Assembly: GCA_028284955.1 (NCBI GenBank)
Contig: JANQQS010000045.1
Location: forward strand, 1-42,992
Direction of reading: 5' to 3'
From: Myxococcota bacterium
GTDB lineage: Bacteria; Myxococcota_A; Polyangia; Polyangiales; Houyiibacteriaceae
DNA length: 42,992 bases
Part shown: positions 5,094 through 29,755 of the stretch, piece by piece
Layout of the letters: each line of letters begins with the position of its first letter
Numbering within the stretch: position 1 is the first letter of the stretch
Notes under the pieces: generated by a model
Databases searched by the model: none
Told to the model about the DNA's origin: nothing
The model's input: the letters and a program-made list of their open reading frames with translations, nothing else
Position numbers and translations under genes: made by a program

Positions 5094-7538
5094 GTGACCA
5101 TGTCTGACGAGGAAAATCCCCGGATTCCGACTTCAGAAGACGCCGATATCGAGCTCGACGAGGAGCTTCCGGTTCTGCCGATCCGCAATGCGGTGCTGTT
5201 TCCTGGCGCGGTAGCCCCCTTCGACGTGGGGCGCGAGAAATCGGTGGCGTTGGTAGAGGACATCGAGAACTTGAATCAACCGGTCATCGCGATTTTCGCG
5301 CAGCGTGACCCCACCACCGATGAACCCGGGGTCGACGATCTCTATCCGGTCGGTGTTGCCGCGCGCGTGCTCAAGGCGCTCAAGCACAGCTCAGGAAACT
5401 ACAGCCTGATCTTGCAAGGCCTGCTTCGCGTGCGCATGGAGGGCGTGAGCGCCCAAGATCCCTACATCAAAGCGCGTGTCTCCAGGCTCGACGAGCCGAA
5501 GTCCGAAGACGTTGAGAGCGAAGCGTTGGCCATGAGCCTGCGCGACATTGCCAAGCAGGTCATTCAGCTGATGCCTGAGCTTCCTCGCGAAGCGAGCACC
5601 CTGATCGATTCGATTCAGGAGCCGGGGCAGCTCGCTGATTTGGTGGCCGCCAACTTGGACGCTCCGGTCGACGAAAAGGCACAGCTGCTTGAAACGATCG
5701 ATGCCAAGGACAGGATTCGCAAGGTGCTCCGGCTGCTGACGCGGCAGCTTGAAATCCTCAAGATGAGAGAGCGCATCAACTCTCAGATCAAAGAGGAGAT
5801 GGGCAAGAATCAACGGGAGTACGTACTTCGCCAGCAGCTGAAAGCCATCAAAGAAGAGCTTGGCGAGGAGGAGGGCGACACCGGTGATCTCGATGCGTTG
5901 GAAGAGCGCATCGCCAAAGCGGACCTCGCCAAAGAGGCCGACAAAGTCGCGCGCAAGCAGCTAAAACGCCTTCGGCAGATGCAGGTTGGGTCGGCCGAAT
6001 ACACCGTGGTGCGCACCTATATCGACTGGATTTTGGATGTGCCCTGGTCCAAGCAAACCGCCGACAACCTGGACATTGCCCAGGTGCGCCGGGTGCTCGA
6101 TGAGGATCATTCAGGGCTCGAGAAAGTCAAAAAGCGCATCGTGGAATACTTGGCGGTGCGCAAACTAAAAAAGGACAAGAAGGGCCCCATTCTTTGTCTG
6201 ATTGGTCCGCCTGGTGTCGGTAAAACTTCGCTCGGACGGAGCGTGAGCCGAGCTTTAGGAAGAAAGTTTCACCGCATCAGTTTGGGCGGCGTGCACGACG
6301 AAGCGGCAATACGAGGCCACCGCCGCACGTACGTTGGTGCGCTTCCCGGTCAGGTCATCCAGGGAATGAAGAAATCGGGCACCATCAACCCGGTGTTCAT
6401 GCTCGACGAGATCGACAAAATCGGCCACGACTTCCGCGGCGATCCCGCGGCGGCGTTGCTCGAAGTCTTGGACCCAGAGCAAAACGATACGTTCAGCGAT
6501 CACTACCTCGAAATTCCCTACGACCTCTCCAAAGTGATGTTTATTGCGACGGCCAACGTTGGTGACACGATTCCTGCGCCGCTGCGAGACCGCATGGAGA
6601 TCATCGAAATTCCTGGCTACACGCGACGCGAAAAACTCGACATCGCGCGTGTGCATTTGCTGCCTAAGCAGCTTGATGAGCACGGGATCAAGCCGGAAAA
6701 AGTCGACATCGCGGACGACGCGGTTCGGTCTGTGATCGATCACTACACGCGCGAAGCGGGAGTTCGAAATCTCGAGCGGCAAATCGCCAGCGTGATTCGC
6801 GGGGTTGCGGTTAAAGTCGCCGAAGGCGAGGAGGGGCCCTGGACGATTCCCGACGAAGATTCCTTGCGGCCCTACTTGGGTCCCCCGCGATTCACGTCGG
6901 AGGTTGCCGAGCGCACCGAGGAAACGGGAGTGGCGACGGGCCTCGCGTGGACTTCGGTGGGTGGTGAAATCCTGTTCATTGAGGCTACGCGGATGCATGG
7001 CACGGGGAAGCTTCAGCTCACTGGGCAGCTTGGCGATGTGATGAAAGAGTCGGCGCAAGCTGCGATGAGCTACGTGCGCACCCGAGCCGCGGCGTTTGGC
7101 GTGGCAGAAGATTTTCTCGAGAAGTGCGATGTGCACATTCATATTCCGGCAGGCGCGATGCCCAAAGACGGGCCGAGCGCCGGCGTCACGATGATGACCG
7201 CGCTTGTCTCGCTATTCACCGGCATCCACGTACGTCACGACGTCGCGATGACCGGTGAAATCACATTGCGCGGTCGCGTGTTGCCAGTCGGCGGCATCAA
7301 GGAAAAGGTGCTCGCCGCGCATCGCGCAGGCATCAAACGGGTCATCCTTCCAGAGCGCAATACCGCCGACTTGGAGGAAGTGCCCGAAGAAGTACGCGAT
7401 ACCCTCGAGTTTGTTCCCGTCTGCAAAGTAGACGAGGTGCTCGCCAACGCGCTTTCCGAACCGGACAAGCTGGAATTGGAGCTGGGCGACGAGAAAAAGA
7501 AAGATTCGTCAGCCTCGCAGGTGCACCCGCCGGCCTAG
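5094..7538 (+). CDS. lon: ATP-dependent Lon protease (S16)
   Basis: 814 aa, a normal length for bacterial LonA. It has the N-terminal substrate-binding domain ([14 protein letters not shown] near 25-38), a coiled middle section, and an AAA+ module with Walker A GPPGVGKT (about 371-378) and Walker [10 protein letters not shown]. The C-terminal protease domain has the catalytic serine in KDGPSAG (S695) and the catalytic lysine in [11 protein letters not shown] (K738), which form the Ser-Lys dyad. Lon is a cytoplasmic quality-control and regulatory protease that unfolds and degrades misfolded and specific short-lived proteins. The start is either GTG at 5094 or ATG at 5100; the only SD-like GAGG lies rather far upstream of both. 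A long leader suggests regulation. The gene is convergent with the transporter operon. Confidence 0.97.
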
Positions 7539-7539
7539 G

Positions 7540-7570
7540 AAAAAGCCAAACGTATGCTCGCGATATGGCT
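7540..7570 (-). terminator. Possible weak terminator of the trehalase-transporter operon
   Basis: On the minus strand, five bases AGCCA (7570-7566) can pair with TGGCT (7548-7544) and are followed by five T residues (7544-7540). The 17-base loop is long and the stem short, so this is a weak candidate. It lies just past the permease stop codon. Confidence 0.25.
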
Positions 7571-7575
7571 CTGGC

Positions 7576-8406
7576 CTATTGCGTCTCCGCGACAGAGTGA
7601 AAACCGAACACCGTCAGGGAGATCAAAAAGCCAGGAAAGAAAACTAGCCAGGGGGCGTCTTGGAGATGGGAAAGGCCGTCTTGCAGCATCGTTCCCCACG
7701 AGGCGTCTGGTGGTGGCACGCCGAGGCCGAGGTAGCTCAGCGCTGCTTCTGCGAGGATAGCGCGGGCTACCGCGAGGGATGCGGCGACTCCCAGGGTCGA
7801 TTTGAGGTTGGGGAGCACGTGGTTCCGCATGATGCGCAAGCGCGATGCCCCAAGGGTTGTGGCGGCGGCGATGAAATCTTGGGCGGCGATTTCTTTTGTC
7901 TCCGCGCGGACAATCCGAGCGACGGTCATCCAGCTGGTTGCCGCGATCAATATGATCAGTTGAGGCAGGCTGGGCTCGAGGTACGACTGCGCGATCAGAA
8001 TCAAGAGCAGCAGCGGCAGGGCGACCGCGATATCAACCACGCGCATGAGCAGCCCGTCGATCCATCCTCCGAGGTAGCCGGCGCCCAAGCCGACGATGGT
8101 TCCCAGCGCGACCGCGGCCAGCATCGAAAGTAGACCCACGCTGATCGATACTCGAGCGCCGTGAAGCGCGCGGGCCCAGAGGTCGCGTCCCGCGGCATCG
8201 GTGCCGAAAGGATGGGCGGCGCCAGGAGGCGCGAGAATTTCGTCAACCGCGAGGTCGACGGCGTTGGGGTCGAACGAGGTAAGCCACGGCGCACATAGTG
8301 CAGCTATGCCGATCGCCGCGATGATAACTCGCCCAATCGTCTGTTTGGAAAGACGGAGGGGCCGCGACGCGGGTATTGCGGAGATCGATCCGCGTGCGCT
8401 GTTCAT
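7576..8406 (-). CDS. ABC transporter permease, DppC/OppC family
   Basis: 276 aa. After the first membrane segment it has HPFGTDAAGRDLWARALHGARVS, the family hallmark, then five further hydrophobic segments and an EAA-type loop (AATTLGASRLRIMRNHVLPN) that normally contacts the ATPase. It forms the inner-membrane channel with the neighbouring DppB-like subunit. The ATG start at 8406 overlaps the upstream permease stop in ATGA, so translation is probably coupled; upstream in-frame codons reach into that gene and are unlikely. The C-terminus stops at GFHSVAETQ, without the usual GDxLRDxLDP tail, so the last dozen residues of the family are missing. Neither alternative frame restores that tail. 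Confidence 0.92.
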   Translation of the reverse strand: MNSARGSISAIPASRPLRLSKQTIGRVIIAAIGIAALCAPWLTSFDPNAVDLAVDEILAPPGAAHPFGTDAAGRDLWARALHGARVSISVGLLSMLAAVALGTIVGLGAGYLGGWIDGLLMRVVDIAVALPLLLLILIAQSYLEPSLPQLIILIAATSWMTVARIVRAETKEIAAQDFIAAATTLGASRLRIMRNHVLPNLKSTLGVAASLAVARAILAEAALSYLGLGVPPPDASWGTMLQDGLSHLQDAPWLVFFPGFLISLTVFGFHSVAETQ

Positions 8407-9470
8407 CGGGCGGCCCTTCCTCCATGGTACCCGGTCTTGTTCAATCCGGTCTCGCTCAGCCCAGGCTCGGCCTGGGGCCGAGAACCAAACACGCGTAGTC
8501 GAGGGTCGAGCGCGCCGTAGGCTATGTCGGCAAGCAGGTTGCCGATGACCACAAACACCGCAATGGTCACCGACAATCCGAGGACGAGGGGATAGTCTCG
8601 GCTCTGAATGGCTTCTACGCTCAGCCGACCCAGGCCCGGCCATGAAAATACCGTCTCCACGATGTACGAACCTTCGACCAGTGCGCCGATTCCCGTGCCC
8701 AACAAGGTGACCGTAGGAAGCAACGCGTTGCGGAGCCCGTGATTCAGCACCACCGTACGTTCTCGAAGGCCTTTGGCGCGCGCGGTTCGAACAAACTGTC
8801 CGCGCAGCGCGTCGACCAGGCTGGCGCGTTGGTATCGCGCCCAAACCGCGAGCTGCGCCAGCGATAGCGTCACCACGGGAAGTACGAAATGCGCACTCTG
8901 AGACCAGAGATTTGCCGCTTCGGATGAAGCTAGGCCAAGCACGCTCGCGTGCGCAGGACTCATGCCCCCGCTCGGCAGCCATTGAAGCTGCACCGCGAAC
9001 ACATGAATCAGCATGAGACCGACCCATACCGAAGGGGCGGAAAGTGCGAGCGTGGTGACCCATCCGCCGATCCTGTCGATCCATCTTCCAGGACGGAGCG
9101 CCATTCCGACTCCCAAGCTTATGCCAAGCATTAAGCTGAAAAGCAGTGCAGACCCCATCAAGAGCAGCGAAGCGGGCAAGCGCTCTTGAATGAGGTCAAT
9201 CACCGGCCGACGCAAGCTGATCGAGCGCCCGAGATCACCGCGCGACGCGCGCGAAGCCCATCGCGCATATTGAATCCAAAGGGGCTTGTCGAGGCCATAC
9301 TGGGCTCGGAGCCGGTTGCGATGTGCGGGGGTCGAGACGGCCGCGCCGTCTCCCGCTGCGGTCGCCAAAGGGTCTCCGGGAGCTAGGTGAGCCAGCAGAA
9401 ACGCTCCCATTGAGACGAGAAGCACCACCCATAGCGAGTGTGCAAGGCGACGAAGAACTATCGCTTGCAT
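8403..9470 (-). CDS. ABC transporter permease, DppB/OppB family
   Basis: 355 aa. The N-terminus (RLAHSLWVVLLVSMGAFLL then HLAPGDPL) and the stretch LDKPLWIQYARW are typical of DppB-type permeases. The EAA loop (AKGLRERTVVLNHGLRNALLP) and the GSYIVETVFSWPGLGRL region are well conserved, and the C-terminus ends in the usual ALDPRLR-containing tail. It is the partner inner-membrane subunit of the next permease, with which it overlaps by four bases (ATGA). Its start lies only nine bases after the stop of the solute-binding protein gene, so all are one transcription unit. Members of this family import peptides, nickel or oligosaccharides; the substrate cannot be read from the permease alone. Confidence 0.93.
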   Translation of the reverse strand: MQAIVLRRLAHSLWVVLLVSMGAFLLAHLAPGDPLATAAGDGAAVSTPAHRNRLRAQYGLDKPLWIQYARWASRASRGDLGRSISLRRPVIDLIQERLPASLLLMGSALLFSLMLGISLGVGMALRPGRWIDRIGGWVTTLALSAPSVWVGLMLIHVFAVQLQWLPSGGMSPAHASVLGLASSEAANLWSQSAHFVLPVVTLSLAQLAVWARYQRASLVDALRGQFVRTARAKGLRERTVVLNHGLRNALLPTVTLLGTGIGALVEGSYIVETVFSWPGLGRLSVEAIQSRDYPLVLGLSVTIAVFVVIGNLLADIAYGALDPRLRVFGSRPQAEPGLSETGLNKTGYHGGRAAR

Positions 9471-9479
9471 GGTTCAGAG

Positions 9480-11162
9480 CTAGCTTCGAAGGCGAGGTTT
9501 CCAGGGCGCTTGAATCAGCCAGCCGTTGTAGTTCGGAGCGGGGTCCGAAAACCCAGTCACGCGATCCACGCGAACAACCTCATTGGCGAGATGTTCATGA
9601 AGCGGAATCGTCGCACAATCGGCAAGCACCTGTTTTTGCACACGGGCATAGATGTCTTTGCGTTGTTTCGAATCGGTCGTTGACTGACCTTCGTCGAGCC
9701 ATTGGTCGACTCGCGCGTTTCGGTAACGCCATACGTTGCTTCCTCTTGGTGGCGTTTGGTTCGAATGCCAGTACAGGCTGAGCTCACCAGGCTCGTAGTC
9801 GATGCAGCCGTGGATGATACTTTGAGGTGTTCCGTCACGCCGAATCGCTTCAGCGGTGGCAAGATCGGGGGTCGGTCGAATCTCCATGCGGATGCCGACT
9901 TGCTTGAGGTAGTGCTGAATCAAGACCGCGTAGCGGCGCTCCCATTCTCGAACGGGTTCGTGCACAAACCGAAAATGCGTTCCATTTCGACGCCGATAAC
10001 CGTCGCCTGCGCGACGCCAGCCGGCGGATTCGAGCAGAGCGGCGGCTTTTCGAGGGTCGTAAGGGTAGCTCGGAACGTTTGCGCAATGCGCCCAGTGGTT
10101 GCTGCCGATGATGGAGCGGGCCGGCGATGCGCTACCCATGACCGCGCGCACCAACGCCGGGCGATCAAGAGCGTGTGCGATTGCTTTGCGAACCGAAGCG
10201 TCGCGAAACAGCGGGTCGTCGTTGTTCAGCGCAAACTGCTGCACGTAGGGAGTGGACAGGACGTATACCTTTGAGCCTGAAACCTTCGCGTACTGGGCGC
10301 TCTTTTGTTGCTCTTCTTCCCACAACACCGCGTCCAGGTCGCCCGCTTGGTAAGCCGCGAGGCGGGCTTCGGCGTCGGGAATATGTCGGACTACGATGCG
10401 TTTCAGCGCCGGCTTGCCTTCGAAGTAGTCGCTGTTGCGCACCATAGAAATATGGCTGCCCGCGATATGTTCTTCGAACTTAAACGGTCCGCTTCCGATC
10501 GGTTGTCGATTGAAGCGGTTGTGTACCGGGTCCTTTCCTTGGAGCAGATGCTTTGGCGCAATGGTCACTTTGCTGGCCAAATCGGCCGCGAAGGATGCGC
10601 GGGGTTCTGCCAATACAAAACGAACGCGATGATTCGACAGCGCGCGTACGCGAACCGCGTGTCCACCAAAGTGCAAGATACTCGCGTGATGAAACTTGGT
10701 GGCAGGGCGAAGCAGGGTCTGAATCGTGAACACGACATCGTGCGCGGTCAGCAGGCGGCCGTCGTGCCACGTTGCATCTTTTCTGAGTTCGACGACGTAT
10801 TCCCGACCATCATCGCTCACATCGAGCCGAGTCGCGAGCACGGGCTCGAGCTCGTGTCTGCGGTCCATTCGCCAGAGCGGACTAAACATAAGAAAGATGA
10901 CCCGCGCGATGCGCGGATGGAACGGGCTGTACACTGGCTGTAGTGCCCTTCCGGTACCGCAGACGAGCGTTTCTCTGCGCAAGTGGCGACCCTCGCGCGG
11001 CTCGCAGGTGCAACCCAGTGCGCCGGATAACGCGAACAATCCACCTGCGCCACCTTTGAGGAGGGTCTGCACAAATCTGCGCCGTTCTTCGAGCGGCATT
11101 CGGCTGAGCTCTTCTTGGAGTCGCTGGTAGATCTGAGCTTCCTGGTCGTAGAACATGCGCAT
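9480..11162 (-). CDS. Extracellular solute-binding protein, family 5
   Basis: 560 aa, the usual size for SBP_bac_5 proteins. It shows the family order: LEPVLATRLDVSDDGREYVVELRKDATWHDG, then LTAHDVVFTIQTLL, IGSGPFKF and VRKAIAHALDR. The N-terminus has a Tat-like motif (ERRRFVQ), a hydrophobic stretch and a cysteine in SGALGC, suggesting a Tat-exported lipoprotein, although the lipobox is imperfect. The 26-residue region before the arginines is long. The ATG at 11162 has a strong SD (AGGAG) that overlaps the trehalase stop codon, TAGGAG. It delivers substrate to the two downstream permeases. With a trehalase upstream, a sugar ligand is as plausible as a peptide, but this is inference. Confidence 0.92.
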   Translation of the reverse strand: MRMFYDQEAQIYQRLQEELSRMPLEERRRFVQTLLKGGAGGLFALSGALGCTCEPREGRHLRRETLVCGTGRALQPVYSPFHPRIARVIFLMFSPLWRMDRRHELEPVLATRLDVSDDGREYVVELRKDATWHDGRLLTAHDVVFTIQTLLRPATKFHHASILHFGGHAVRVRALSNHRVRFVLAEPRASFAADLASKVTIAPKHLLQGKDPVHNRFNRQPIGSGPFKFEEHIAGSHISMVRNSDYFEGKPALKRIVVRHIPDAEARLAAYQAGDLDAVLWEEEQQKSAQYAKVSGSKVYVLSTPYVQQFALNNDDPLFRDASVRKAIAHALDRPALVRAVMGSASPARSIIGSNHWAHCANVPSYPYDPRKAAALLESAGWRRAGDGYRRRNGTHFRFVHEPVREWERRYAVLIQHYLKQVGIRMEIRPTPDLATAEAIRRDGTPQSIIHGCIDYEPGELSLYWHSNQTPPRGSNVWRYRNARVDQWLDEGQSTTDSKQRKDIYARVQKQVLADCATIPLHEHLANEVVRVDRVTGFSDPAPNYNGWLIQAPWKPRLRS

Positions 11163-11172
11163 GTTGCGTCTC

Positions 11173-12678
11173 CTATGGCTTGTGATCCGTCTCTGATTGG
11201 AGCGACTCTTTTCCTTGTTTGGAGAGCTCGGCGTACAGCGTCAGCGCCGCGGCGTTGGTCCATCCGAAGCCAATATCCTTCGAGCTGTACGGGATTCGTG
11301 TTCCCGCCTCGATACCGGACTCGGCTCGTTCGACGTCGTATTTCTCGACGAGCGTGCCGTGCTCGACGAACTCGTCGAACACCATTCGGAGGAACTTCAA
11401 GCTGATGCGTTCGGCTTCATCGTCATAGCCATATCGACGGAGCCCGTCGACGGCTAGCATATGGAGGTTGGCCCACCCGTAGGGAGCATCCCATGCGTCG
11501 CCGGTCTCTTTGGTGCTGGCACGAAGCCCGCCCTTGCGCTCGAACACTGCGAGTTGTTCGACGACGCGTTTCGCTTGCTCGGTAGACGCGATCCCTGCCC
11601 AGAGGGGCCAAAACGTTGTCGCGAACGGGTAGGGGTGACGGTTCTCTTGGACAATATCGTAGTCAACGTAGAGCCCGGCTTGGTCGTCCCAGAGGAGCTC
11701 ATTGATTTTTGTTTTGCGCGCGTCGGCTTTCTCCTGCCACTCCGAGGCCTCACTGAGCTCGCCGAGTTCGGAGAGGATCTCATGCATGTCGGACTCCATG
11801 ACGTAGAGAAGTGTGTTCAAGCACACTGGATTGTAGTTTTCGATGCCCGATTCTTCAGAGCCGAATCGCCCCGAGGGATCGAAGCCGGATTCGTGCTGCG
11901 CTCGATAGCGAGATAGTCCCGTGGGCGTCTGGTGTCGCTCGGAAGTCCAAAACCCGTGTTGCGTGCGAATCGCGTCGAGAGTCGATCGAAGCCATCGTTC
12001 ATCCTCGGTCTTTTCAAAGACGCCAAGCACCATGCGCGTAAGAAAAGGCGGGTGCGGTTGGGAGAGATAGTAGGTGCGGTTGGCGTTCAGAACCGTTCCG
12101 TAGTGCTTGATCTGGTAGATGAGATTCCCGGTGATCTCCCGGGCGAGTCGGACGTGGGTGAGCCAATCTGTGCTTAGCAATCCGCGAGCGATGAAGTAGC
12201 TGTCCCAACCATACATTTCGTGAACGTGGCCGTTCGGCACCACGTAGGGAAACGGCAAGAAAAGCAGTCCGTGCTCGGTCACGCGGGTGGGGTCTTCAGG
12301 AAGTACCCGGAGGTCGATGAAGGCGGATTCCGCGCCGGGAAATCGTTCGTCGAGCAAGTGCTGAACCGCGGCTTCCTGCTCGCTTTGGGCGATGTAGAGA
12401 AGCGAAGCGTCGCGGGCTTTGAATTTCGGATCCGGCGCGGCCATGGGCAGATCACCCACATCGCGACGTAGGTCGGTCCAGCCTTGGTCAATGTAGTCGA
12501 GCAGGCCCTTCCAGGTTGGTGGGAATGTTTTTTCGGCCTTCCGAGACTCCTTTTTTTCTGGCGCGGTGGAGGCGGGAGGCGGGGCGCTGCCGCACGAGGA
12601 AAGAAGCAGGCTGGCCGCGATGATGATGCGCGACTGCGCGAATCTTGGGTGGTGGATGTTTTTTGTCGGGTGGAACAC
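11173..12678 (-). CDS. Lipoprotein trehalase, GH37
   Basis: 501 aa. Trehalase hydrolyses alpha,alpha-trehalose to two glucose molecules. Both family signatures are visible: PNGHVHEMYGWDSYF (148-162) and DAWDAPYGWANLH (394-406). The likely catalytic acid is D267 in ESGFDPSGRFG and the base E445 in LVEKYD. Residues 18-29 form a lipoprotein signal ending in LLLSSC (C29), followed by a Pro/Ala/Lys-rich linker, so the enzyme should be anchored outside the cytoplasm. The start is GTG; no better codon lies before the signal peptide. It is the first gene of the operon, 10 bases ahead of the solute-binding protein gene, which suggests that hydrolysis or binding of an external sugar is linked to the transporter. 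It is divergent from gpsA. Confidence 0.93.
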   Translation of the reverse strand: MFHPTKNIHHPRFAQSRIIIAASLLLSSCGSAPPPASTAPEKKESRKAEKTFPPTWKGLLDYIDQGWTDLRRDVGDLPMAAPDPKFKARDASLLYIAQSEQEAAVQHLLDERFPGAESAFIDLRVLPEDPTRVTEHGLLFLPFPYVVPNGHVHEMYGWDSYFIARGLLSTDWLTHVRLAREITGNLIYQIKHYGTVLNANRTYYLSQPHPPFLTRMVLGVFEKTEDERWLRSTLDAIRTQHGFWTSERHQTPTGLSRYRAQHESGFDPSGRFGSEESGIENYNPVCLNTLLYVMESDMHEILSELGELSEASEWQEKADARKTKINELLWDDQAGLYVDYDIVQENRHPYPFATTFWPLWAGIASTEQAKRVVEQLAVFERKGGLRASTKETGDAWDAPYGWANLHMLAVDGLRRYGYDDEAERISLKFLRMVFDEFVEHGTLVEKYDVERAESGIEAGTRIPYSSKDIGFGWTNAAALTLYAELSKQGKESLQSETDHKP

Positions 12679-12766
12679 TACCCGCCTGGCATAGCGGGAA
12701 GGCGAATGCCGCGCAAAGCTGGCATCCCGTGTTTTCCTCGCCGCAAATGTGATCTAGAGTAACCCC

Positions 12767-13768
12767 GTGGCGTCAGAAAAGACGGCAGTGTTGGGAGCAG
12801 GGTCGTGGGGCACGGCGCTTGCCAAGTTGCTTGCCGATCAAGGGCGCTCGACGCGGCTTTGGGCCCGCCGACCTGAGCTCGCTCAGGCAGTTCAAGAGCA
12901 ACGCTCGAACGATGCGTATTTGCCCGGGTTCGCGCTACCCGACACATTGGAAGTTACGAGCGATCTCAAGCGAGCGCTTGACGGCGCGAACTTCGTGCTT
13001 TCGGTGGTGCCGACTCATGGCACGAGAGAGGTGCTGAAACGAGCTGCACCGCTGCTTGCGGAGTCAGCAGCGGTGGTGAGCGCGACCAAGGGAATCGAAA
13101 ACGAGTCGCTTAAGCTCGTTTCAGAAATTTTTGAAGAATATATTCCGGCTTCGCGGCTGGCGTTTCTTGGGGGCCCAAGCTTTGCGCGAGAAGTCGCGCA
13201 GGGCGTTCCCACCGCGGTCTCCGTCGCGGGCGTTGATCCTGACGTCGTCGCGACGGTGCAACGAGCGCTGACCACCGATCGATTTCGCGTGTATGCGACC
13301 GAGGACGTGGTGGGGGTTGAGCTTGGTGGCGCTCTCAAAAACGTGATCGCGATCGCCGCGGGCATTGCCGATGGTCTCGGTTTTGGCCACAACACGCGAG
13401 CCGGATTGATCACCCGCGGGCTCGCTGAAATCTCTCGTCTCGCGATTCATTTGGGGGCAAATCCGCTTACATTGGCGGGGCTCAGCGGGATGGGGGATTT
13501 GGTGTTAACGTGCACTGGGGACCTATCGCGCAATCGCACGGTGGGCCTTCAGCTCGGTCAAGGTAAATCGATCGAGGACATCTTAGACGGCATGCGGATG
13601 GTGGCAGAAGGCGTGCGCACGACCAAAAGCGCGCATACTCTCGCGGGACATCGAGGTGTGGAGATGCCGATTACAGCTGAGGTCTATCGAGTGCTCTACG
13701 AAGGAAAATCGGCGCACGACGCGGTGGTTGATTTGATGACGCGGCCAATGAGGCGAGAGCGCGAGTAG
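12767..13768 (+). CDS. gpsA: NAD(P)-dependent glycerol-3-phosphate dehydrogenase
   Basis: 333 aa, full length. It reduces dihydroxyacetone phosphate to sn-glycerol 3-phosphate, the backbone for phospholipid synthesis, in the cytoplasm. The Rossmann motif VLGAGSWGTALA is at 8-19, the GGPSFAREV signature at 135-143, and the catalytic lysine in GALKNVIAIAAG is K191. GLSGMGDLVLTCTG and SRNRTVG near 238-260 are typical of the C-terminal domain. The start is GTG at 12767. The histidine kinase gene begins 19 bases downstream, so they may be co-transcribed, but no functional link is apparent. Confidence 0.97.
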   Translation: MASEKTAVLGAGSWGTALAKLLADQGRSTRLWARRPELAQAVQEQRSNDAYLPGFALPDTLEVTSDLKRALDGANFVLSVVPTHGTREVLKRAAPLLAESAAVVSATKGIENESLKLVSEIFEEYIPASRLAFLGGPSFAREVAQGVPTAVSVAGVDPDVVATVQRALTTDRFRVYATEDVVGVELGGALKNVIAIAAGIADGLGFGHNTRAGLITRGLAEISRLAIHLGANPLTLAGLSGMGDLVLTCTGDLSRNRTVGLQLGQGKSIEDILDGMRMVAEGVRTTKSAHTLAGHRGVEMPITAEVYRVLYEGKSAHDAVVDLMTRPMRRERE

Positions 13769-18761: not shown

Positions 18762-20537
18762 ATGTTGGTGGCCGCTGAAGACCTATGTCGGATCGGCCCG
18801 TATCGAGTGATCGGCAGGCTTGCAACGGGGGGGATGGCCGAAATCTTGCTCGCCCGGGTTGCAGACGGCAGTGCATCTGCGCGCACTGTGGTCATCAAAC
18901 GGGTGCTCCCCCATCTCGCGAACGATCCCGCATTCGTCGATATGTTTGTCGACGAAGCGAGAATTGCGGTTCGTCTTCAACACCCCAACATCGTCCACAC
19001 CGAGCAGCTCGTCGAATATCAAGACGAACTCTTTCTCGTCATGGAGTACCTGTGCGGGGAGAGTCTCGCCGGCCTGGTGCGCCGCATGACGAAACTAGAT
19101 CGCCGAATGCATCCGGTGTTGGTCGCGTACGTGGCCGCGGAGGTCGCAGCAGGTCTTCATGCCGCGCACGAGCTGACGGACGAACGCGGGTTTCCTCTTG
19201 GCATCGTTCATCGTGATGTGTCTCCGCACAATATTTTCCTTGAATACGAAGGCGACGTGAAGATTCTCGATTTCGGGATCGCAACCGGGGCGGACCGCGC
19301 GTCTCGGACCCAGACGGGGCAGCTCAAGGGGAAGTTCGAATATATGTCGCCTGAGCAATGCCGTGGCTTCCCCGTCGACCGCCGCTCGGATGTCTTCGCC
19401 ATGGGCACGGTGCTTTGGGAGCTCTGCACGGGGCGACGCTTGTTTCGGCGGCAGGAAGCTCATCTATCGCTTCAGGCTGTGGCGGAAGGTTACGCTCCTC
19501 CCCCGACGGAGGTCGAGCCCGCGTGTCCCGAGATCTTTGATGCGATTTGCGCACGTGCGCTCGCCCGAGATCGTGAGCTCCGCTATGCGACCGCGGACGA
19601 GATGCGTCACGATTTGCTCGCCGCGATGGATAGCTTTCGGCCGGCTGCGTCGCCGAAGATGACGATGAAAGGCATGCTCGCTCATCTATTTCAGGAGCGA
19701 CAGCTCGAGAAGCGACAACTGCTTCGCCACCTTGACGCCGGACACGTGCCCGAACAGCTTCCCGCGTCCGAAGCCGACCGCAGCGTTCGCGTTCCTGGAG
19801 TAACCTCCCGGTTTCCTCCGGCGAACGCCCCCGAGCGTCGCCTACTGGAAACAGGTCAATCTCAATCGCGCTCGATATCCGAGAGCCGAATGCGTCCCAA
19901 GCCGAAGCGTCGGACTCAATTTCCGGTGTATGTGCTCGGCGCGTTGGGGCTTCTTCTCGCCGCGTGGTGGTGGGCTGAGGGTCGTCCTCGATCGAACCAA
20001 ACGACGGCTCGCTCCGTCTCGAAGACGGTGGCGCCGATGGACTCAGCGAAGCCAGGTTCGGCCTCTTTGAGACACGCGGGATCGACGCGTACCGGATCGT
20101 CTGGCGCTAGCTCCTCTCCGTCAGACTCGTTCGCGCCGGGGCCACCCCATTCGGAGTCGTCGGACGAGGCATCGCCAGGCGCGTCTGAAGTTGGGACCGT
20201 CGAGCTCGACGTTCGCGCGAACCCTCAACGCGTTTCCGTATTTCTTGGCGACAACCGACTCGGTGAGACTCCTCTGTCTGCACGATTGCCGCGGGGTACC
20301 GACCCGCTCGAGCTGCGCTTCGAGGCCCCCGGTTATCTTTCCCGAAAGGTAGACGTCGTTCCGGATTCAAGCGTACGTCTCCATATTGACCTTCGCCGGC
20401 TTCCTTCTCGTCGACAGAGGCGTCGAGCGCGTCACCCCTCGGAGACGGTGACCGTCAGCCCACGCGAGACGGTGACCAACGGTCCGCCCGCCAGGAAGCC
20501 CACGCCGGAAAAAAAGCGCTACTTTCGATTCGACTGA
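18762..20537 (+). CDS. Membrane Ser/Thr protein kinase with C-terminal PEGA domain
   Basis: 591 aa. The Hanks-type kinase domain spans about 13-290. It has a glycine loop (RLATGGMAEI), the ATP-binding lysine in VVIKRVLP (K46), the partner glutamate E65, the catalytic loop HRDVSPHN (D152, N157), DFG (170-172) and SPE. Serine replaces the usual lysine after HRDV, a form I recall as frequent in myxobacterial kinases. A basic Ser-rich linker leads to one membrane segment (about 388-405), a second Ser/Pro-rich linker and a PEGA domain (about 478-546), which should lie outside the cytoplasm and may bind envelope material. The C-terminus is basic. It heads a plus-strand cluster and diverges from the lipoprotein/TPR pair, with which it may act. 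Confidence 0.94.
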   Translation: MLVAAEDLCRIGPYRVIGRLATGGMAEILLARVADGSASARTVVIKRVLPHLANDPAFVDMFVDEARIAVRLQHPNIVHTEQLVEYQDELFLVMEYLCGESLAGLVRRMTKLDRRMHPVLVAYVAAEVAAGLHAAHELTDERGFPLGIVHRDVSPHNIFLEYEGDVKILDFGIATGADRASRTQTGQLKGKFEYMSPEQCRGFPVDRRSDVFAMGTVLWELCTGRRLFRRQEAHLSLQAVAEGYAPPPTEVEPACPEIFDAICARALARDRELRYATADEMRHDLLAAMDSFRPAASPKMTMKGMLAHLFQERQLEKRQLLRHLDAGHVPEQLPASEADRSVRVPGVTSRFPPANAPERRLLETGQSQSRSISESRMRPKPKRRTQFPVYVLGALGLLLAAWWWAEGRPRSNQTTARSVSKTVAPMDSAKPGSASLRHAGSTRTGSSGASSSPSDSFAPGPPHSESSDEASPGASEVGTVELDVRANPQRVSVFLGDNRLGETPLSARLPRGTDPLELRFEAPGYLSRKVDVVPDSSVRLHIDLRRLPSRRQRRRARHPSETVTVSPRETVTNGPPARKPTPEKKRYFRFD

Positions 20538-23122: not shown

Positions 23123-24907
23123 GTGTTGCCCCGCCTTTCCTTGCGCGCAGTGTGGATCGGCGCTGTTTCATGGATCGCGGCCGCAGCTCCCGTGGTCGCC
23201 CAGCAATCGACGTACGAACGAGAGCACGTGGCCGATGTTTTGGAACGCGATTCTTTGGAAGAAGAACCGCATCCAGAAGGAAAAACCGTCGAGTTCGTTC
23301 GGTTCGTACGCGACGAAGTATTCGTCGAGGGAGAGATCCTGCCCGAGCCTATCCTGCCGATTGGACCCTCTCTCACGATGTTCAACAAGCTCCATTGGCT
23401 TACGCGTGAATCCACCGTCGCGCGAGAGATGCTGATTCGGGAGGGCGAACCCTACCGCGAAGTGCTGGTCGAAGAGAGCATGCGCATTCTTCGTTCGCTC
23501 CGGATATTTTCCTTGGTGCGCATCGCCGCCGTCAAAACGAAGCACCCTGATCGGGTAGGCGTGATTGTCTACACGCGAGACCTCTGGAGCCTTCGCGTTG
23601 AAACCGATTTTCAGGTCACCGGTGAGCAGATTGACCAGCTCTTTGTGCAGGTGATTGAGCGAAACTTTCTCGGCCGGCAAAAAGCGCCGAGTGTTCGATT
23701 CGTTATGGTGCCGGACACGTATCGTTTGGGCCAAGCGTATGAAGATCGACGAGTCAACGGGAGCATGGTTCGTTTTGGAGAATCTGCGGATTTGATTTTC
23801 AACCGAGCAACCGGCAACGCCGAGGGAATGCGTGTGGAGGGGGCGCTGGGGGTGCCTTTTTACAGGCTCAGCCAGAAATACGGGTTTTCGTTGAGCGGCG
23901 GGTACGACACCGAAGTGGAGCGGCAGCTGCGCAACGGAGTGGTGCTCGGATACGACGATCCGGAAACGGCGGAGGAGGAGCAGATTCCGCAGGTCTGGCG
24001 ACAGCGTGATGCCTTTGCGTCGTTGCTCGGCTCCTATCGAACAGGGAGCTCGTACAAAGCGACGTTTTCGGGAGGGTTCGCGTATTTGGAGCGCATGGCG
24101 GCGCCGAATGCGGAAACCGGGATTTCGCGCGGAGAGAATCCTGCGTTTGACCGCGACGTATTGCCGCGGGAGCGGAGGCAGATTGGGCCAGTCGTGAGCT
24201 ATGAGCTCTTCACGCCCAATTTCGTCATTTTTGAGAACCTCGATTCATTCGGAGTGAGCGAAAATGTTCGCGTAGGGCCCCGCATGGCTGCCGTTGTACG
24301 GTTTCCGCTGAGCGCGTTCGGTTCGTCGACTGACTCGATCACGTTCTCGGGCCTGCTCAACTACGCCGTGGCGGGGAGGGACGCGCTTGGCGAAGTGACG
24401 GTCAACGCATTTTCGCGGCTGGAAGATGGCAACGTTGTAGACCAGTTTTTGAGCGGCGAGCTTCGATGGGCATCACCGATGTGGCGAGGGTTCCGCGTCG
24501 TGGGGCGTCTCGGCTGGGAAGGCCGGCGAAACGACACCAGCCGTACTCAGGTAAGCCTTGGGGGAGACAACGGCCTGCGCGGTTTTGTCAGCCAGGCGTT
24601 CGTCGCGACAGGGGCCAACTTGGTGCGCGGCAACCTCGAATTGCGCAGCCGGCCGCTCAACATTAAGTCAGTGCATGTGGGCGCGGTATTGTTCTACGAT
24701 ACGGGGGCAGTTTATGAACGCCTCGGTTCTGCGCAATTGCATCATTCAGTTGGCGTCGGTATTCGTTTGCTGCTGCCACAGTTTAATCGGTTGCCGTTCC
24801 GGGCTGACGGAGGCCTCCCGTTGGGCGAAGAATTCCAGTTTGTTCCCTCTTTCGGTTCAAGCCAGACCGTGACGCTCACCAATCTGGAGTCGGCAGTTGG
24901 TTTCTAG
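23123..24907 (+). CDS. Omp85/BamA-superfamily outer-membrane protein
   Basis: 594 aa. A signal peptide (about 1-26) ends in APVVA before QQST. Residues about 90-165 look like a POTRA-type domain (LHWLTRESTVAREMLIREGEPY, then SLRIFSLVRI). The remainder is a predicted beta-barrel ending in phenylalanine, as outer-membrane proteins usually do. The conserved Omp85 loop motif is present as GLRGF near 483-487. It is much shorter than BamA, with apparently fewer POTRA domains, so an accessory Omp85 protein (TamA-like or patatin-linked type) is more likely than BamA itself. The GTG start lies four bases after the helicase stop, so the two are probably co-translated. Confidence 0.82.
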   Translation: MLPRLSLRAVWIGAVSWIAAAAPVVAQQSTYEREHVADVLERDSLEEEPHPEGKTVEFVRFVRDEVFVEGEILPEPILPIGPSLTMFNKLHWLTRESTVAREMLIREGEPYREVLVEESMRILRSLRIFSLVRIAAVKTKHPDRVGVIVYTRDLWSLRVETDFQVTGEQIDQLFVQVIERNFLGRQKAPSVRFVMVPDTYRLGQAYEDRRVNGSMVRFGESADLIFNRATGNAEGMRVEGALGVPFYRLSQKYGFSLSGGYDTEVERQLRNGVVLGYDDPETAEEEQIPQVWRQRDAFASLLGSYRTGSSYKATFSGGFAYLERMAAPNAETGISRGENPAFDRDVLPRERRQIGPVVSYELFTPNFVIFENLDSFGVSENVRVGPRMAAVVRFPLSAFGSSTDSITFSGLLNYAVAGRDALGEVTVNAFSRLEDGNVVDQFLSGELRWASPMWRGFRVVGRLGWEGRRNDTSRTQVSLGGDNGLRGFVSQAFVATGANLVRGNLELRSRPLNIKSVHVGAVLFYDTGAVYERLGSAQLHHSVGVGIRLLLPQFNRLPFRADGGLPLGEEFQFVPSFGSSQTVTLTNLESAVGF

Positions 24908-25049: not shown

Positions 25050-26993
25050 ATGGGACTCTTTTCAAAAATCTTTAAGGGTGGGCCGGAGGGCGAGGGCGAA
25101 CACGCCGCCGATGAGTCGGGTTCCGGCAAACCCAGCTCCGGTAAGCAGCCCAGCTCCGGCAAGCTCAGTTCTGACAAGCCCGGCTCCGGCAAGCCATCCG
25201 GCAAGCCCGACGCCGCGAAGCAAAGCGCACGGAAAGCAGCGACCGGCAAGCAGTCTGCTGCGAACCGTGGTCGATCTGAGGCCAAAGGCGGCAAACAGAG
25301 CTCAGGCAAACAGCGTTCGGAAAGACAGGGCTCAGGCAAACAGGGTTCGGGCAAACAGGGCTCTGGCAAACAGGGCTCTGGCAAACAGGGTTCGGGAAAA
25401 CAAAGCTTGGAACGAGGCGAGGGCAAACGAGCTCGCAGCAAAGACGGCGCAAGCAAGAGTCGTCTGGGTACGGGGGAGCGCCGGGTTGCTTCCAATGGTG
25501 AGAGCGTGCGCTCTCGAAGCTACGTGCCCAGCAGCGATTTGGACCCGGATACAGAACCGGGGCCCATGTCTCCTCGCTCGCGGGCTGGTGCGCGAGGCTC
25601 TAGCGGTGTTGCCCAAGGCGCGTTCAATGCGGAGGAGCCTGAGGCGACACGCCCCAAAGACGAATCGCCTCTCTTGGGCGCTTCGCACGCAGCGAGCTCG
25701 CCACCTTTGGATGATGGAAGCCCGCTTGCGGAAGCGCCGACGAAGATCGTGCACGTTGCAGATGTGCAGTCACCTCGTCAACGCCGGAGATCGCGCCGAG
25801 CACCGCCTCCGCTCCGCAGTTCGCGCAGCGCTGCCGAACCGTCGGTTTCCGATGGGGGTATTTCGCCACTCGAAGCGGCGATCACATCGACCACAGGTCA
25901 TCCTCCTAAGTCGATCCCCAAACACGGCCGGCTCCCCAAAGAGGCGTCTGACGTGTCTCTTGGTCCCGATGCGGGCTCGGTTGCGACTAGCGAGACGGTG
26001 ATATTTGACGATTCCGTACGGGCTAGCGATTCGACGCTCGAGCCCAGTCGCGCCGAGCCGGCGGCTTCGAAAGCTGCCTCGAGAGACGCGTCTTCGGTGG
26101 CTCGACGAAACGGGACATCGCCCGGCCGGCTGCCCGGCCCATCGTCCAACGGGAAGGGGGTGTCACCGGAGCAAGTGTTCACTCGATTGAAAGAGCGGAC
26201 CGTCGCGCATCTCGCAGACCTGATATTCGAGTTGAGCTGGGGGGCCCCTTCTACAGAATGGCTCGAAGCGACGCAGCAGAGGTTGAAAGCATTGGAAGAG
26301 GCACGTCGCGAAGTGATGGGCGACAAAGAGTCTCCGTTCGCGACATTCGCCAAAGCCGTCGAAGAGGTGCGGTTCGAGCAAGGAGCGCAGGTCACGGGAG
26401 ACAATCGAGATCGGCTGACGCAAGCTTACGAAGCGCTGCGAAAGAAAGAACCGCGCGTTCGGTCGATGGAGGAGGTTTGCGTTGAGCGAGAAGGCCTATT
26501 GAGCCGCGTCTTGCTTTTGCAGGTGAACGGAATCTCGGCCATGACGGTCGACAAACTGAAGGCTGCTGGTGTCCTGACGACCGGCGATTTGGTGGAAGCG
26601 ACATACGCCCAAATCGCTGAAGCCGGGGCACTTCCGCTGGAGGTGGCCAAGCAAGCTTCTGCGAAAGTGCGTGCGTTTCGAAAGGAGCATCTTCGTTCAA
26701 CTCCGACTCGCATCTCGGAACGCAGGCGATTAAGCACGTTGCTTTCGGAGCTGCGGGCGATGCAGCGAGCGTTCGAGAACGCGGCCGCAGGTTGGTCGTC
26801 CGAGGCTCGGTCGGACAAGATGCGCCTCAGAAGGTCTCGCGAAGCGACCTTGCTGCAGCTTCAGGCTGAGCTCGTGCGCATGGGGGAGCCTCAGCGGGTC
26901 ATCGAACTCGATCGAGTTCCGTTCGGTCGAAAGATTGAGCTTCTAGAGAGCTTTGTGGAGTCGCGAAAACGAGCCGCGACGAGCGGAGAGTAA
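25050..26993 (+). CDS. Low-complexity protein with C-terminal helix-hairpin-helix and coiled regions
   Basis: 647 aa. The N-terminus MGLFSKIFKGG could form a short amphipathic, membrane-touching helix. Residues about 20-380 are disordered and rich in Ser, Gly, Lys and Pro, including five exact-length GSGKQ units (94-118) and more degenerate SSGK units before them. The folded part begins near 370: a helical segment (VFTRLKERTVAHLADLIFELSWG), then a helix-hairpin-helix-like region (VNGISAMTVDKLKAAGVLTTGDLVEA), then long charged helices likely to form a coiled coil. HhH motifs usually bind DNA or mediate protein contacts. The ATG has GAGCAGG upstream. It precedes the pentapeptide and bactofilin genes by 81 bases, which suggests a structural or scaffold role; the function is unknown. 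Confidence 0.7.
   Translation: MGLFSKIFKGGPEGEGEHAADESGSGKPSSGKQPSSGKLSSDKPGSGKPSGKPDAAKQSARKAATGKQSAANRGRSEAKGGKQSSGKQRSERQGSGKQGSGKQGSGKQGSGKQGSGKQSLERGEGKRARSKDGASKSRLGTGERRVASNGESVRSRSYVPSSDLDPDTEPGPMSPRSRAGARGSSGVAQGAFNAEEPEATRPKDESPLLGASHAASSPPLDDGSPLAEAPTKIVHVADVQSPRQRRRSRRAPPPLRSSRSAAEPSVSDGGISPLEAAITSTTGHPPKSIPKHGRLPKEASDVSLGPDAGSVATSETVIFDDSVRASDSTLEPSRAEPAASKAASRDASSVARRNGTSPGRLPGPSSNGKGVSPEQVFTRLKERTVAHLADLIFELSWGAPSTEWLEATQQRLKALEEARREVMGDKESPFATFAKAVEEVRFEQGAQVTGDNRDRLTQAYEALRKKEPRVRSMEEVCVEREGLLSRVLLLQVNGISAMTVDKLKAAGVLTTGDLVEATYAQIAEAGALPLEVAKQASAKVRAFRKEHLRSTPTRISERRRLSTLLSELRAMQRAFENAAAGWSSEARSDKMRLRRSREATLLQLQAELVRMGEPQRVIELDRVPFGRKIELLESFVESRKRAATSGE
25329..25403 (+). repeat. 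Five tandem 15-bp repeats encoding GSGKQ
   Basis: Five in-frame 15-base units, starting at 25329, 25344, 25359, 25374 and 25389, follow the pattern GGC-TCN-GGC-AAA-CAG and encode GSGKQ. Units 3 and 4 are identical; the others differ at third positions. The array lies within the disordered region of the surrounding gene and could expand or contract without a frameshift. Confidence 0.9.
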
Positions 26994-27074
26994 CGAAGGC
27001 GTTCGCAAACGGTAGCGACAGATCAAGTCACAATCATGGATGCGCTTCAGAGAACGGGGATTGGAGATATCTAG

Positions 27075-28325
27075 ATGGCCGATTTTACACGTGAAGAGAT
27101 TCTCAAGAAGGTTCGTCAGCGCGCCGCGATTGAGCGTTCGGACCTTCGAGGCCTGGATCTCTCGAAAGCTCCGCTCGACGGGGCCAATTTTCGACGCTCG
27201 GATATGGAAGGCACGAACCTTGAGGGCGCGGTGCTCAAGAAGGCCGACCTCAAGAACTCCAGCTTGCGCGAAGCGTACCTTGCGAAAGCCGATCTTCGCG
27301 GAGCGAACTTAGAAAACGCTGATCTCGAAGGTGCACAGCTGCTCGGAGCGAATCTTGCGGGTGCAAACCTTTCCCGCGCCAGTCTGGAGGGAGCGGACTT
27401 AAGCGGCGCCAACCTCTCGGGGGCGCGCCTTGGCTACGCGCAGATTGCAGCGGCCAATTTGGGAGGCGCGGACCTCACCGAAGCAGTGTTGGCGCACACC
27501 GATTTGGAAGAGGCATTTTTGGGCGGTGCCAAGGCGTCTCGCGCGGACTTCAGCAACGCCAATCTATTTGCCGCCAACGCAGAAGCCGCGGATTTTACGT
27601 CGGCGATATTCGAAGACGCCCGTTTGGTTGAAGTGCGCGCTCATCAGGCAAACTTTTCGCGCGCGAACCTTCGCAAAGTCGATCTTTCCACTGCGGCTCT
27701 TACAGAAGCGAATCTGAACGGCGCAGACTTGCGCAAGGCAACGCTAACCGGCGCGGCCATCGATCGCGCAGTGTTCACGGGCGCGAAAGTTGCCGGCGTG
27801 GTGGGTACGGGTGCGCCGGCCCAAGGCGTCGACGCAGCATGGCTTGACAACAGCGTGCACGCCGATGGGAGTGGTCGAGTTGACGACGCGCGAACGCTAT
27901 CGTTGCTCTCTGGCGAAGACGTTGCGCCGGACCAAGAAGCCATTCCCTCGACCCGATACTTTGGCCCGGGCGACGTGTTGCGGCACGCAAGCCTGGCGTT
28001 CAGCGAAGGCGCGTCCGTGGAGATCCAGAGTCTCTTCGAGCATTGTTCGATTTTTCTTTCGAAGGGCACACAGCTGGTCGTCGGCAAGTCTGGCGTACTC
28101 GCGGATTGCACCATTGAGGGAGAGGGCCGCATCACGATTCACGGCAAGTTCTACGAACGCGAAAGCCCGGGAATCATTGGGCCAGAAGAACTGGTGGTGA
28201 CTTCCGGCGGAGCGGTGGTTTCCTCAGTCCAGCAGACCGAACGAGCGACTCGTTTCGCGTTTGAACCTCAGTGCCAGCTTCGAATGAAAATCTTGCAGGG
28301 TGCTTCGCAGGCATCGGCGGCTTGA
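27075..28325 (+). CDS. Pentapeptide-repeat protein with second beta-rich domain
   Basis: 416 aa. After a short helical start (1-20), residues about 21-240 form some 44 uninterrupted pentapeptides of the A-(D/N)-L-x-x type, predicting one long right-handed quadrilateral beta-helix. After a linker (241-290), the last 120 residues (DVLRHASLAFSEGASVEI onward) show short alternating beta strands with glycines (KGTQLVVGKSGVLADCTIEGEGRITIHG), resembling a bactofilin or other beta-helix. That second similarity is my inference. No signal peptide or membrane segment is seen, so it should be cytoplasmic. The ATG has GGAG eight bases upstream. A bactofilin gene follows 35 bases later, so a joint filament or scaffold is plausible. 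Confidence 0.88.
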   Translation: MADFTREEILKKVRQRAAIERSDLRGLDLSKAPLDGANFRRSDMEGTNLEGAVLKKADLKNSSLREAYLAKADLRGANLENADLEGAQLLGANLAGANLSRASLEGADLSGANLSGARLGYAQIAAANLGGADLTEAVLAHTDLEEAFLGGAKASRADFSNANLFAANAEAADFTSAIFEDARLVEVRAHQANFSRANLRKVDLSTAALTEANLNGADLRKATLTGAAIDRAVFTGAKVAGVVGTGAPAQGVDAAWLDNSVHADGSGRVDDARTLSLLSGEDVAPDQEAIPSTRYFGPGDVLRHASLAFSEGASVEIQSLFEHCSIFLSKGTQLVVGKSGVLADCTIEGEGRITIHGKFYERESPGIIGPEELVVTSGGAVVSSVQQTERATRFAFEPQCQLRMKILQGASQASAA

Positions 28326-28360
28326 AGGGAACAGAAACCTCGAAATAGAGAGGCAGGGTT

Positions 28361-29011
28361 ATGGGAACGACAAAACAAACGCTGATCGAAGAAGGCACTC
28401 AGCTCAAAGGAACGCTTTCCTCCGATTGTCCGGTGGTCGTGCGCGGTCGACTCGACGGGGAAGTATCTGGTCCACTTCTCCAAGTCAGTCCGACCGGAAA
28501 AGTATCCGGGAAGATTGAAGTGCAGCGGGTGGAGTCCGCCGGTGAGCTCGCTGGCGAGTACAAGGCGGACGTTGTGCGACTCTCGGGGCGGGTAGCTGAC
28601 GAAACGGTCATTCGCACGAAGTCGCTCGAGGTCAAGCTTGCCGGCGTGGATGACGAAAGCGCCCTGGTGCTCGGAGACTGCGAGCTCGAAGTTGGCAACC
28701 CCCCGACCAAGGAAGACGCGGTCCGGCAAGCGAACGAAGCGAGAAAGGCCAAGCGCTCGGGCAGCTCGAATGGGGGAGCGAGCGCGGACACAGACGCTGT
28801 CGCGAGCGAAATCACGAGCGTGTCTCCGGCGCCTACCGCGATGGCCGACGAAGACGAAACTGCGCAGGCACCCGGACGAGCCTCCGGAGCCGGCAAAGGG
28901 AAAAAAGGAGCTGACGGCAAACGAATCGGCGGGTCCAATGCTGGAGAAACGCGCAAAGGCAAACGAATCGAGGCCGCGCGAGGGAGTACGCCGCCGCCAG
29001 CCGGTAAATAG
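28361..29011 (+). CDS. Bactofilin-family cytoskeletal protein
   Basis: 216 aa. Residues about 5-105 match the bactofilin (DUF583) pattern: LIEEGTQLKGTLSSDCPVVVRG, LDGEVSG, VSPTGKVSGKIEV, ADVVRLSGRVAD and ALVLGDCELEV. These repeats fold as a compact right-handed beta-helix that polymerises end to end into nucleotide-independent filaments. The remaining 100 residues are polar, Ser/Gly/Lys-rich and end in a basic tail (GKGKKGADGKR, TRKGKRIEAARG), which may bind membrane or partners. It follows the pentapeptide-repeat gene and precedes the amidohydrolase gene by three bases, so it is in an operon. In related bacteria bactofilins act in cell shape, chromosome positioning or polarity; which applies here is unknown. 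Confidence 0.9.
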   Translation: MGTTKQTLIEEGTQLKGTLSSDCPVVVRGRLDGEVSGPLLQVSPTGKVSGKIEVQRVESAGELAGEYKADVVRLSGRVADETVIRTKSLEVKLAGVDDESALVLGDCELEVGNPPTKEDAVRQANEARKAKRSGSSNGGASADTDAVASEITSVSPAPTAMADEDETAQAPGRASGAGKGKKGADGKRIGGSNAGETRKGKRIEAARGSTPPPAGK

Positions 29012-29014
29012 CGA

Positions 29015-29755
29015 GTGAAGCAAGCAGGGGCTGTTTCGCAGACCGAGGCGTATTCGCAGATCGCTGGCGAGGACGCGTCTGGCGTTGTGATTACATGCGA
29101 GCATGCGTCGCAGCGTCTTCCGGAACCGTGGCAATGGCCCAAAGAGGATGCCCGGCTCGTGGGCACGCATTGGGCGTACGATTTGGGAGCGGCCGAGCTC
29201 GCAAGAGCCCTTGCTGCGCGACTTCGCGCGCCAGCGATTCTCTCTCGGTTTACTCGCTTGCTCGCTGACCCCAACCGACCCGAAGACTCTCCTACGCTAT
29301 TTCGTGCGCGGGCCGATGGCGCGCCGATACACATCAACCTTAGCGTCGACAGCCGCGACCGCGAGCTTCGCCTTGAGCGATATTACCGGGCGTATCATCG
29401 CGCAGCCGATCAACTTGTGGCGAATCATGCCGCTCCGCTACTGCTTTCGATTCATACCTTCACTCCAGCCTACGAAGGAAAGTCGCGAAGCATGGAGATC
29501 GGGGTGCTCTACGATCGTGATGAAGAGCTCGCCCGGCGCTGCGCTGCCCACCTCGACGACGCGGGTTTCATCAGCGCGTTGAACGAACCCTATTCTGGGA
29601 AAGAGGGGCTCATGTATGCAGTCGACCGCCATGCTGTTCGCTACGGCCGGCGCGCACTAGAGATCGAGGTGCGCCAAGATCTGGCGGTCGACAACGCAAT
29701 GCAAGAACGAATCGTAGCCGAGCTCGAAGCCTTTCTGCGCGCTTTATCGGCGTAG
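29015..29755 (+). CDS. N-formylglutamate amidohydrolase family protein
   Basis: 246 aa, with a GTG start three bases after the bactofilin stop. It matches the PF05013 family: VVITCEHASQRLPE near the N-terminus, THWAYDLGAAELARALA, SRFTRLLADPNR, then LLLSIHTFTPAYEGKSRSMEIGVLYDRD and ALEIEVRQDL. Conserved Glu/His residues in CEHAS and IHTF probably bind the metal. The named activity hydrolyses N-formyl-L-glutamate in histidine breakdown, but no hut genes are nearby and many members act on other substrates, so the exact reaction is uncertain. Its tight link with the bactofilin gene suggests co-expression, not necessarily a shared function. Confidence 0.88.
   Translation: MKQAGAVSQTEAYSQIAGEDASGVVITCEHASQRLPEPWQWPKEDARLVGTHWAYDLGAAELARALAARLRAPAILSRFTRLLADPNRPEDSPTLFRARADGAPIHINLSVDSRDRELRLERYYRAYHRAADQLVANHAAPLLLSIHTFTPAYEGKSRSMEIGVLYDRDEELARRCAAHLDDAGFISALNEPYSGKEGLMYAVDRHAVRYGRRALEIEVRQDLAVDNAMQERIVAELEAFLRALSA

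Follow-up and report, generated by a model that had tools for sequence, protein, structure and literature searches.

A conserved gene trio of Myxococcota and Acidobacteriota that may encode a tethered bactofilin scaffold

A bactofilin gene and the two genes preceding it were found together, in the same order, in genomes of two bacterial phyla, and their products probably build one undescribed intracellular scaffold. The trio (g1, g2 and g3) lies in a 42,992-nucleotide stretch of DNA from a Myxococcota bacterium, which was analysed as a whole and is here called the window; the three genes and all features within them are on its plus strand. The reading that we favour, with a probability of roughly 55%, is that g1, g2 and g3 form one operon-like module specifying a bactofilin scaffold that is tethered and bears a rigid solenoid as arm or cap. 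To our knowledge, partners of bactofilins have been described in few species only, cell-wall enzymes and ParA adaptors making up most of them. The trio, in which a bactofilin is inherited together with two obligate partners in both phyla, would offer a defined set of proteins for studying the anchoring and length limitation of a nucleotide-free filament. As far as our searches show, g2 would also be the first single polypeptide to unite a pentapeptide solenoid with a domain of the bactofilin type. The trio is carried by Minicystis rosea DSM 24000, a named strain with a complete genome, and can therefore be tested in culture.

Results

Conservation of the trio in two phyla

The trio consists of g1 (25050-26993, 647 aa), a putative tether/adaptor protein, g2 (27075-28325, 416 aa), a pentapeptide-repeat solenoid fused to a domain modelled with the bactofilin fold, and g3 (28361-29011, 216 aa), a bactofilin with a disordered, lysine-rich C-terminal tail. 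A preliminary description of this DNA had pointed out three adjacent plus-strand genes here, and all three ORFs are present. They are separated by 81 bp (g1-g2) and 35 bp (g2-g3). Among 115 relatives, full-length g2 homologues shared genomes and contigs with g3 and g1. Scanning genome contigs for the C-terminal domain of g2 yielded 43 loci, distributed over Myxococcota (Minicystis rosea, Labilithrix, a Sorangium MAG and others) and Acidobacteriota (Blastocatellia, Chloracidobacterium and gp11). Gene g3 followed g2 directly in 43/43 loci, and g2 was immediately preceded by g1 in 41; of the remaining two, one lies on a contig that begins inside g2 (L098) and the other contains a gene fusion (L100, see below). 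Median spacing across the loci was 51 bp between g1 and g2 and 18 bp between g2 and g3, with 4-bp gene overlaps in four loci.

Co-occurrence was also evident at the level of whole genomes. Across 289 Polyangia genomes, the g2 C-terminal domain and a g3-type bactofilin were detected in the identical 35 genomes, with g1 found in 33 of these and in one additional genome (G104) whose contig ends inside g2. Likewise, in 162 genomes of the Chloracidobacterium class the g2 C-terminal domain and g3 occupied the identical 13 genomes, every one of which also contained g1, and g1 was additionally found in G311, where a contig cuts g2. Across an evenly drawn sample of the phylum, the g2 C-terminal domain was strongly matched only within the order to which the window belongs. 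Between the two phyla, the g2 and g3 proteins retain 36-55% identity. Because both sequence and order are conserved across two phyla, the possibility that g1, g2 and g3 are chance ORFs can be ruled out. The preliminary description had held that its module idea would fail if homologues rarely occurred together; the trio was instead found together, in order, in both phyla. In a tree of the concatenated proteins the Acidobacteriota rows formed one group (SH-aLRT 98), and either old inheritance or a single inter-phylum transfer would fit this topology.

Further conserved neighbours were sought in the 43 loci, and those that were shared were limited to close relatives. In the window, g3 is followed at a distance of 3 bp, on the same strand, by a gene of the N-formylglutamate amidohydrolase family (29015-29755) that was not kept beside the trio in other genomes. 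An Omp85-type outer-membrane protein gene is located upstream of the trio (23123-24907), and L062 and L065 encode homologues of its product (31-32% identity) at 5-8 kb upstream of their trios. The window also encodes a Ser/Thr protein kinase with a PEGA domain (18762-20537).

g3 is a bactofilin that lacks a membrane-targeting sequence

The assignment of the third gene to the bactofilins in the preliminary description was borne out, with g3 scoring 47.4 bits against the Bactofilin model PF04519 (gathering cut-off 27.9). The g3 profile also matched solved bactofilins (2n3d, E 4e-8; 6ria, E 6e-8), so that g3 resembles canonical members such as Caulobacter BacA and Thermus TtBac over the core, and by its sequence it is inferred to polymerise as a bactofilin. 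Most bactofilins, although not all, carry an N-terminal membrane-targeting sequence (MTS), for which the consensus MFSKKKK has been published (PMC12448750). In contrast to these canonical proteins, g3 has no such N-terminus, and an MTS-like start was detected in just 1/44 g3 homologues.

The window genome contains four further bactofilin genes (G000:C67:12594-13273, where two are adjacent, G000:C137:15810-16100 and G000:C216:18555-18842). All four resemble the Pfam model more closely than g3 does, and one bactofilin of the genome other than g3 begins with MFGKKQ. The g3 family is also separated from the other bactofilins of Polyangia by a wide gap in score, its members exceeding 140 bits while the next bactofilin reaches 46 bits.

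g2 joins a pentapeptide solenoid to a domain modelled with the bactofilin fold

The g2 protein matched the Pfam Pentapeptide model, which describes A(D/N)LXX repeats, with an E-value of 8e-49 (163 bits against a cut-off of 20.2). An AlphaFold2 model built from the loci had a pLDDT of 92.6 and a pTM of 0.67, and residues 3-239 superposed on HetL with Z 33.0 and an rmsd of 1.1 over 223 residues. With HetL, Alr5209, MfpA and Qnr, g2 shares the right-handed quadrilateral solenoid. Its score exceeded the NCBIfam threshold of the short Alr5209 family and fell far below those for Qnr (66.6 bits against 240) and MfpA (58.9 against 360), with no sign of gyrase mimicry. Mimicry of DNA was also considered for the solenoid, which has an average net charge of -9 over 233 residues. 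Unlike all of these pentapeptide proteins, g2 has an added C-terminal domain and a fixed operon context.

The existence of a second, beta-rich domain had been noted in the preliminary description, and the model confirms one at residues ~291-410 (27945-28304). Using VIA-align, residues 293-409 superposed on the subunit of the Thermus bactofilin filament (6rib_A) with Z 14.9, 101/101 residues and an rmsd of 1.8 Å; the corresponding values were Z 13.8 over 103/103 residues for BacA (2n3d) and Z 13.5 over 90/90 residues for 6ria. The modelled domain thus adopts the beta-helix fold of solved bactofilins over their full length, to which g2 adds the N-terminal solenoid. At the level of sequence the relationship was much fainter: the domain remained below the PF04519 cut-off, with 1/10 members matched (E 0.022), and searching the PDB by sequence with this domain returned nothing significant. 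A comparison with the four canonical bactofilins of the window genome using hhalign gave a weak alignment of 98 columns at 24% probability; its score was reached by 0/200 column-shuffled decoys, a control that leaves room for another beta-helix family since column shuffling also destroys beta-helix periodicity. Given the weak sequence match and the limit of the decoy control, the domain is described here as modelled with a bactofilin-like fold and is kept out of the bactofilin family. An origin of this domain by internal duplication of g3 was considered and found to be unsupported, as profile comparisons with g3 gave probabilities of 2.5% and 14% over 17 columns. The two kinds of beta-helix that had been proposed for the module are both present, with the refinement that both reside within g2 itself, which ends in the bactofilin-type domain.

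The two domains of g2 are connected by a joint (residues 283-289) with a pLDDT below 50, and because of this and of the pTM their relative orientation is uncertain. This arrangement bears on an alternative explanation, that g2 is a length-limiting end cap that pairs with one filament end of g3 through its bactofilin-fold domain and blocks further addition with its N-terminal solenoid. The location of the solenoid N-terminal to the bactofilin-fold domain would suit such a protein, as would the observation that bactofilins form non-polar filaments via end-to-end contacts (PMC12448750). However, with a flexible joint between the domains, steric blocking by the solenoid is not certain, and we consider a dedicated cap unlikely, albeit within reasonable reach. 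For the tethered scaffold that we favour, g2 may serve either as an arm or as a cap.

g1 combines a disordered linker with a helical core

The g1 protein begins with a peptide resembling an MTS, followed by a long disordered linker, a four-helix bundle resembling histidine phosphotransfer (HPt) domains, a helix-hairpin-helix (HhH) domain and a C-terminal helical hairpin; residues 361-647 were modelled at pLDDT 92.2 and pTM 0.86 (AlphaFold2, built from the loci). The N-terminal peptide, MGLFSKIF, is encoded at 25050-25073. An MTS-like start was present in 16/41 g1 homologues, from both phyla, and in 11/41 a zinc ribbon forms the N-terminus; in the tree, these 11 rows and L100 form a single group of 12. 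The remaining 14/41 had neither, which partly reflects uncertain starts or cut contigs. The amphipathicity of the MTS-like peptides was unexceptional for their composition, being equalled or exceeded by 7-33% of shuffles, and binding of the membrane by this peptide is inferred from its likeness in sequence. Since g3 is without an MTS while g1 often has an MTS-like start, it is suggested that g1 supplies the anchor.

Within the linker, a tandem array (25290-25402; Tandem Repeats Finder period 15, 7.5 copies, score 133) encodes GSGKQ repeats, five of them in tandem at residues 94-118. The preliminary description of g1 as a disordered GSGKQ-repeat protein with an HhH region agrees with these five copies and with the modelled HhH fold; it did not include the MTS-like N-terminus, the HPt-like bundle or the bactofilin fold in g2. 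In relatives the disordered, low-complexity character of the linker was kept and the GSGKQ repeat was absent, indicating that the repeat is specific to the window genome, and it was dropped as a candidate functional motif for this reason.

The HPt-like bundle spans residues ~372-468 (26163-26453). Its likeness to HPt domains derives from a match of the g1 profile to CheA P1 (E 0.001) and from a structural match to a designed four-helix bundle. A four-helix bundle is a common arrangement of helices. Searching with the whole g1 core in Foldseek produced no match at E <= 0.001. The match to CheA P1 raises the possibility that the trio positions a signalling or polarity complex, in which the HPt-like/HhH core binds a partner of the receiver or GTPase type and the bactofilin holds it in place. 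Additional slight support for this role comes from a core homologue in L121 that adjoins two small Arf/Ras-type GTPase genes, and from one to six further core paralogues in trio-bearing Acidobacteriota, some of them within proteins of ~1230 aa. However, the L121 homologue is distant and stands alone, the surroundings of the trio include no conserved GTPase or kinase gene, and the phospho-accepting histidine that would identify a phosphotransfer domain is missing, the site aligned to the CheA histidine being occupied by another residue in 38/39 homologues. A role in signalling or polarity is judged to be rather unlikely.

The HhH domain (residues ~480-551, 26487-26702) is of the RadA/UvrC/NusA type, with VIA-align Z-scores of 8-9 over 55-66 residues and a match of the g1 profile to the RadA HhH (E 6e-8). 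For g1 of the window alone the domain fell below the Pfam cut-off (E 0.14), whereas HHH_5 was matched by 33/39 family members (best E 2e-9). DNA-binding HhH motifs are defined by the glycines of the hairpin. In the g1 family these were not conserved, with the first glycine found in 17/39 and the second in 12/39 sequences, and the net charge of the domain averaged only +0.6, so g1 does not classify as a DNA-binding HhH protein. These properties are pertinent to the proposal that the trio is a DNA- or chromosome-positioning scaffold in the manner of BacNOP-PadC, with the HhH domain binding DNA and linking it to the bactofilin. The disordered N-terminus and C-terminal HhH domain of g1 do parallel the disordered region and DNA-binding domain of PadC (PMC5703909), and the linker of the window g1 carries a strong positive charge (+20 over 360 residues). 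However, in addition to the lack of conserved glycines and of charge in the HhH domain, the basic GSGKQ repeat is absent from relatives, no ParB domain was found by Pfam in g1 or its family, and no partition gene was detected among the nine window proteins scanned, the other loci being compared for shared genes only. The DNA binding and chromosome control put forward in the preliminary description are accordingly left unsupported, and a chromosome scaffold appears improbable.

Natural fusions join the tether to either partner

Two proteins were identified in which an N-terminus of the g1 type is part of one of the other members. In a Polyangiaceae contig (L100:4612-6375, JAICTZ010000015.1), g2 is extended in the same reading frame by a g1-type zinc ribbon (Zn_Ribbon_1, E 2e-5) and a proline-rich linker, and a g1 core was found neither nearby nor upstream of the fused gene. 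In a second genome (G271), a g3-type bactofilin (L117:7651-8679, on C219; Bactofilin E 3e-14) has an N-terminal zinc ribbon, weakly matched, followed by a linker; this bactofilin is a second paralogue that is unlinked to the trio. G271 also contains, on a different contig, a second gene of the g1 type (L116:6819-8681). Judged by their sequences, the L100 and L117 proteins are natural examples of a tether joined to g2 and to a g3-type bactofilin, respectively.

That the three genes are mere neighbours brought together by chance or shared regulation is hardly credible: the flanking genes do differ everywhere, but no other gene has been retained beside a trio whose order and co-occurrence persist across two phyla at this level of divergence, and the fusions speak against it as well.

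Discussion

In the tethered scaffold that we favour, g3 would polymerise as a bactofilin and g2 would enter or cap this polymer via its C-terminal bactofilin-fold domain, with the pentapeptide solenoid projecting as a rigid docking arm. The assembly would be anchored by g1 through the long disordered linker, either to the membrane (by the MTS-like peptide) or to a protein partner (by the zinc ribbon), and the HPt-like/HhH helical core of g1 could then be offered to g2, g3 or a client protein. The filament-plus-adaptor module suggested in the preliminary description is supported by the togetherness and order of the genes and by the tether fusions; its DNA-binding scaffold component is not.

By analogy, the trio would work most like the bactofilin scaffolds that bear adaptors, for example BacNOP-PadC (PMC5703909) and BacA-PbpC (PMC12448750). 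BacNOP-PadC-ParAB of Myxococcus xanthus, also a member of the Myxococcota, is a proposed client-recruiting scaffold in which bactofilin genes are clustered with that of an adaptor having a disordered N-terminus (PMC5703909). It differs from the trio in several respects: PadC has a ParB/nuclease domain that g1 lacks, the trio has one bactofilin together with a pentapeptide-bactofilin-fold fusion, and neither ParA nor ParB is encoded among the nine scanned window proteins. In BacA-PbpC, the bactofilin and its partner share the association with the membrane; a client made in excess can take the place of the bactofilin MTS in Caulobacter (PMC12448750), and a comparable situation is proposed here for g1 and g3. 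In contrast to the partner in that system, g1 does not belong to the cell-wall enzymes, and no catalytic domain is predicted in it. Literature searches pairing bactofilin with pentapeptide repeat, polymer-forming cytoskeletal or helix-hairpin-helix found no paper among sources that included few subscription journals.

More tentatively, these genes could represent a composite cytoskeleton of Myxococcota and Acidobacteriota, in which a bactofilin co-assembles with a solenoid-bactofilin-type protein, both are held by a dedicated tether, and the core of that tether recurs in further proteins encoded by these genomes.

The extra g1-core paralogues in trio-bearing Acidobacteriota are proteins of ~500 aa or parts of the larger proteins mentioned above (for example L123:9172-10650, L124:8827-12513, L130:5026-8721 and L133:6626-10342). 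Genomes of the Chloracidobacterium class without the trio had essentially no such paralogues. The distant core homologue and the two GTPase genes of L121 are located at 7320-8498, 8604-9197 and 10724-13537 of that locus. Near another distant core paralogue, two genes (L134:544-894 and 3230-4627) encode proteins that by eye resemble a microcompartment shell protein and an aldehyde dehydrogenase.
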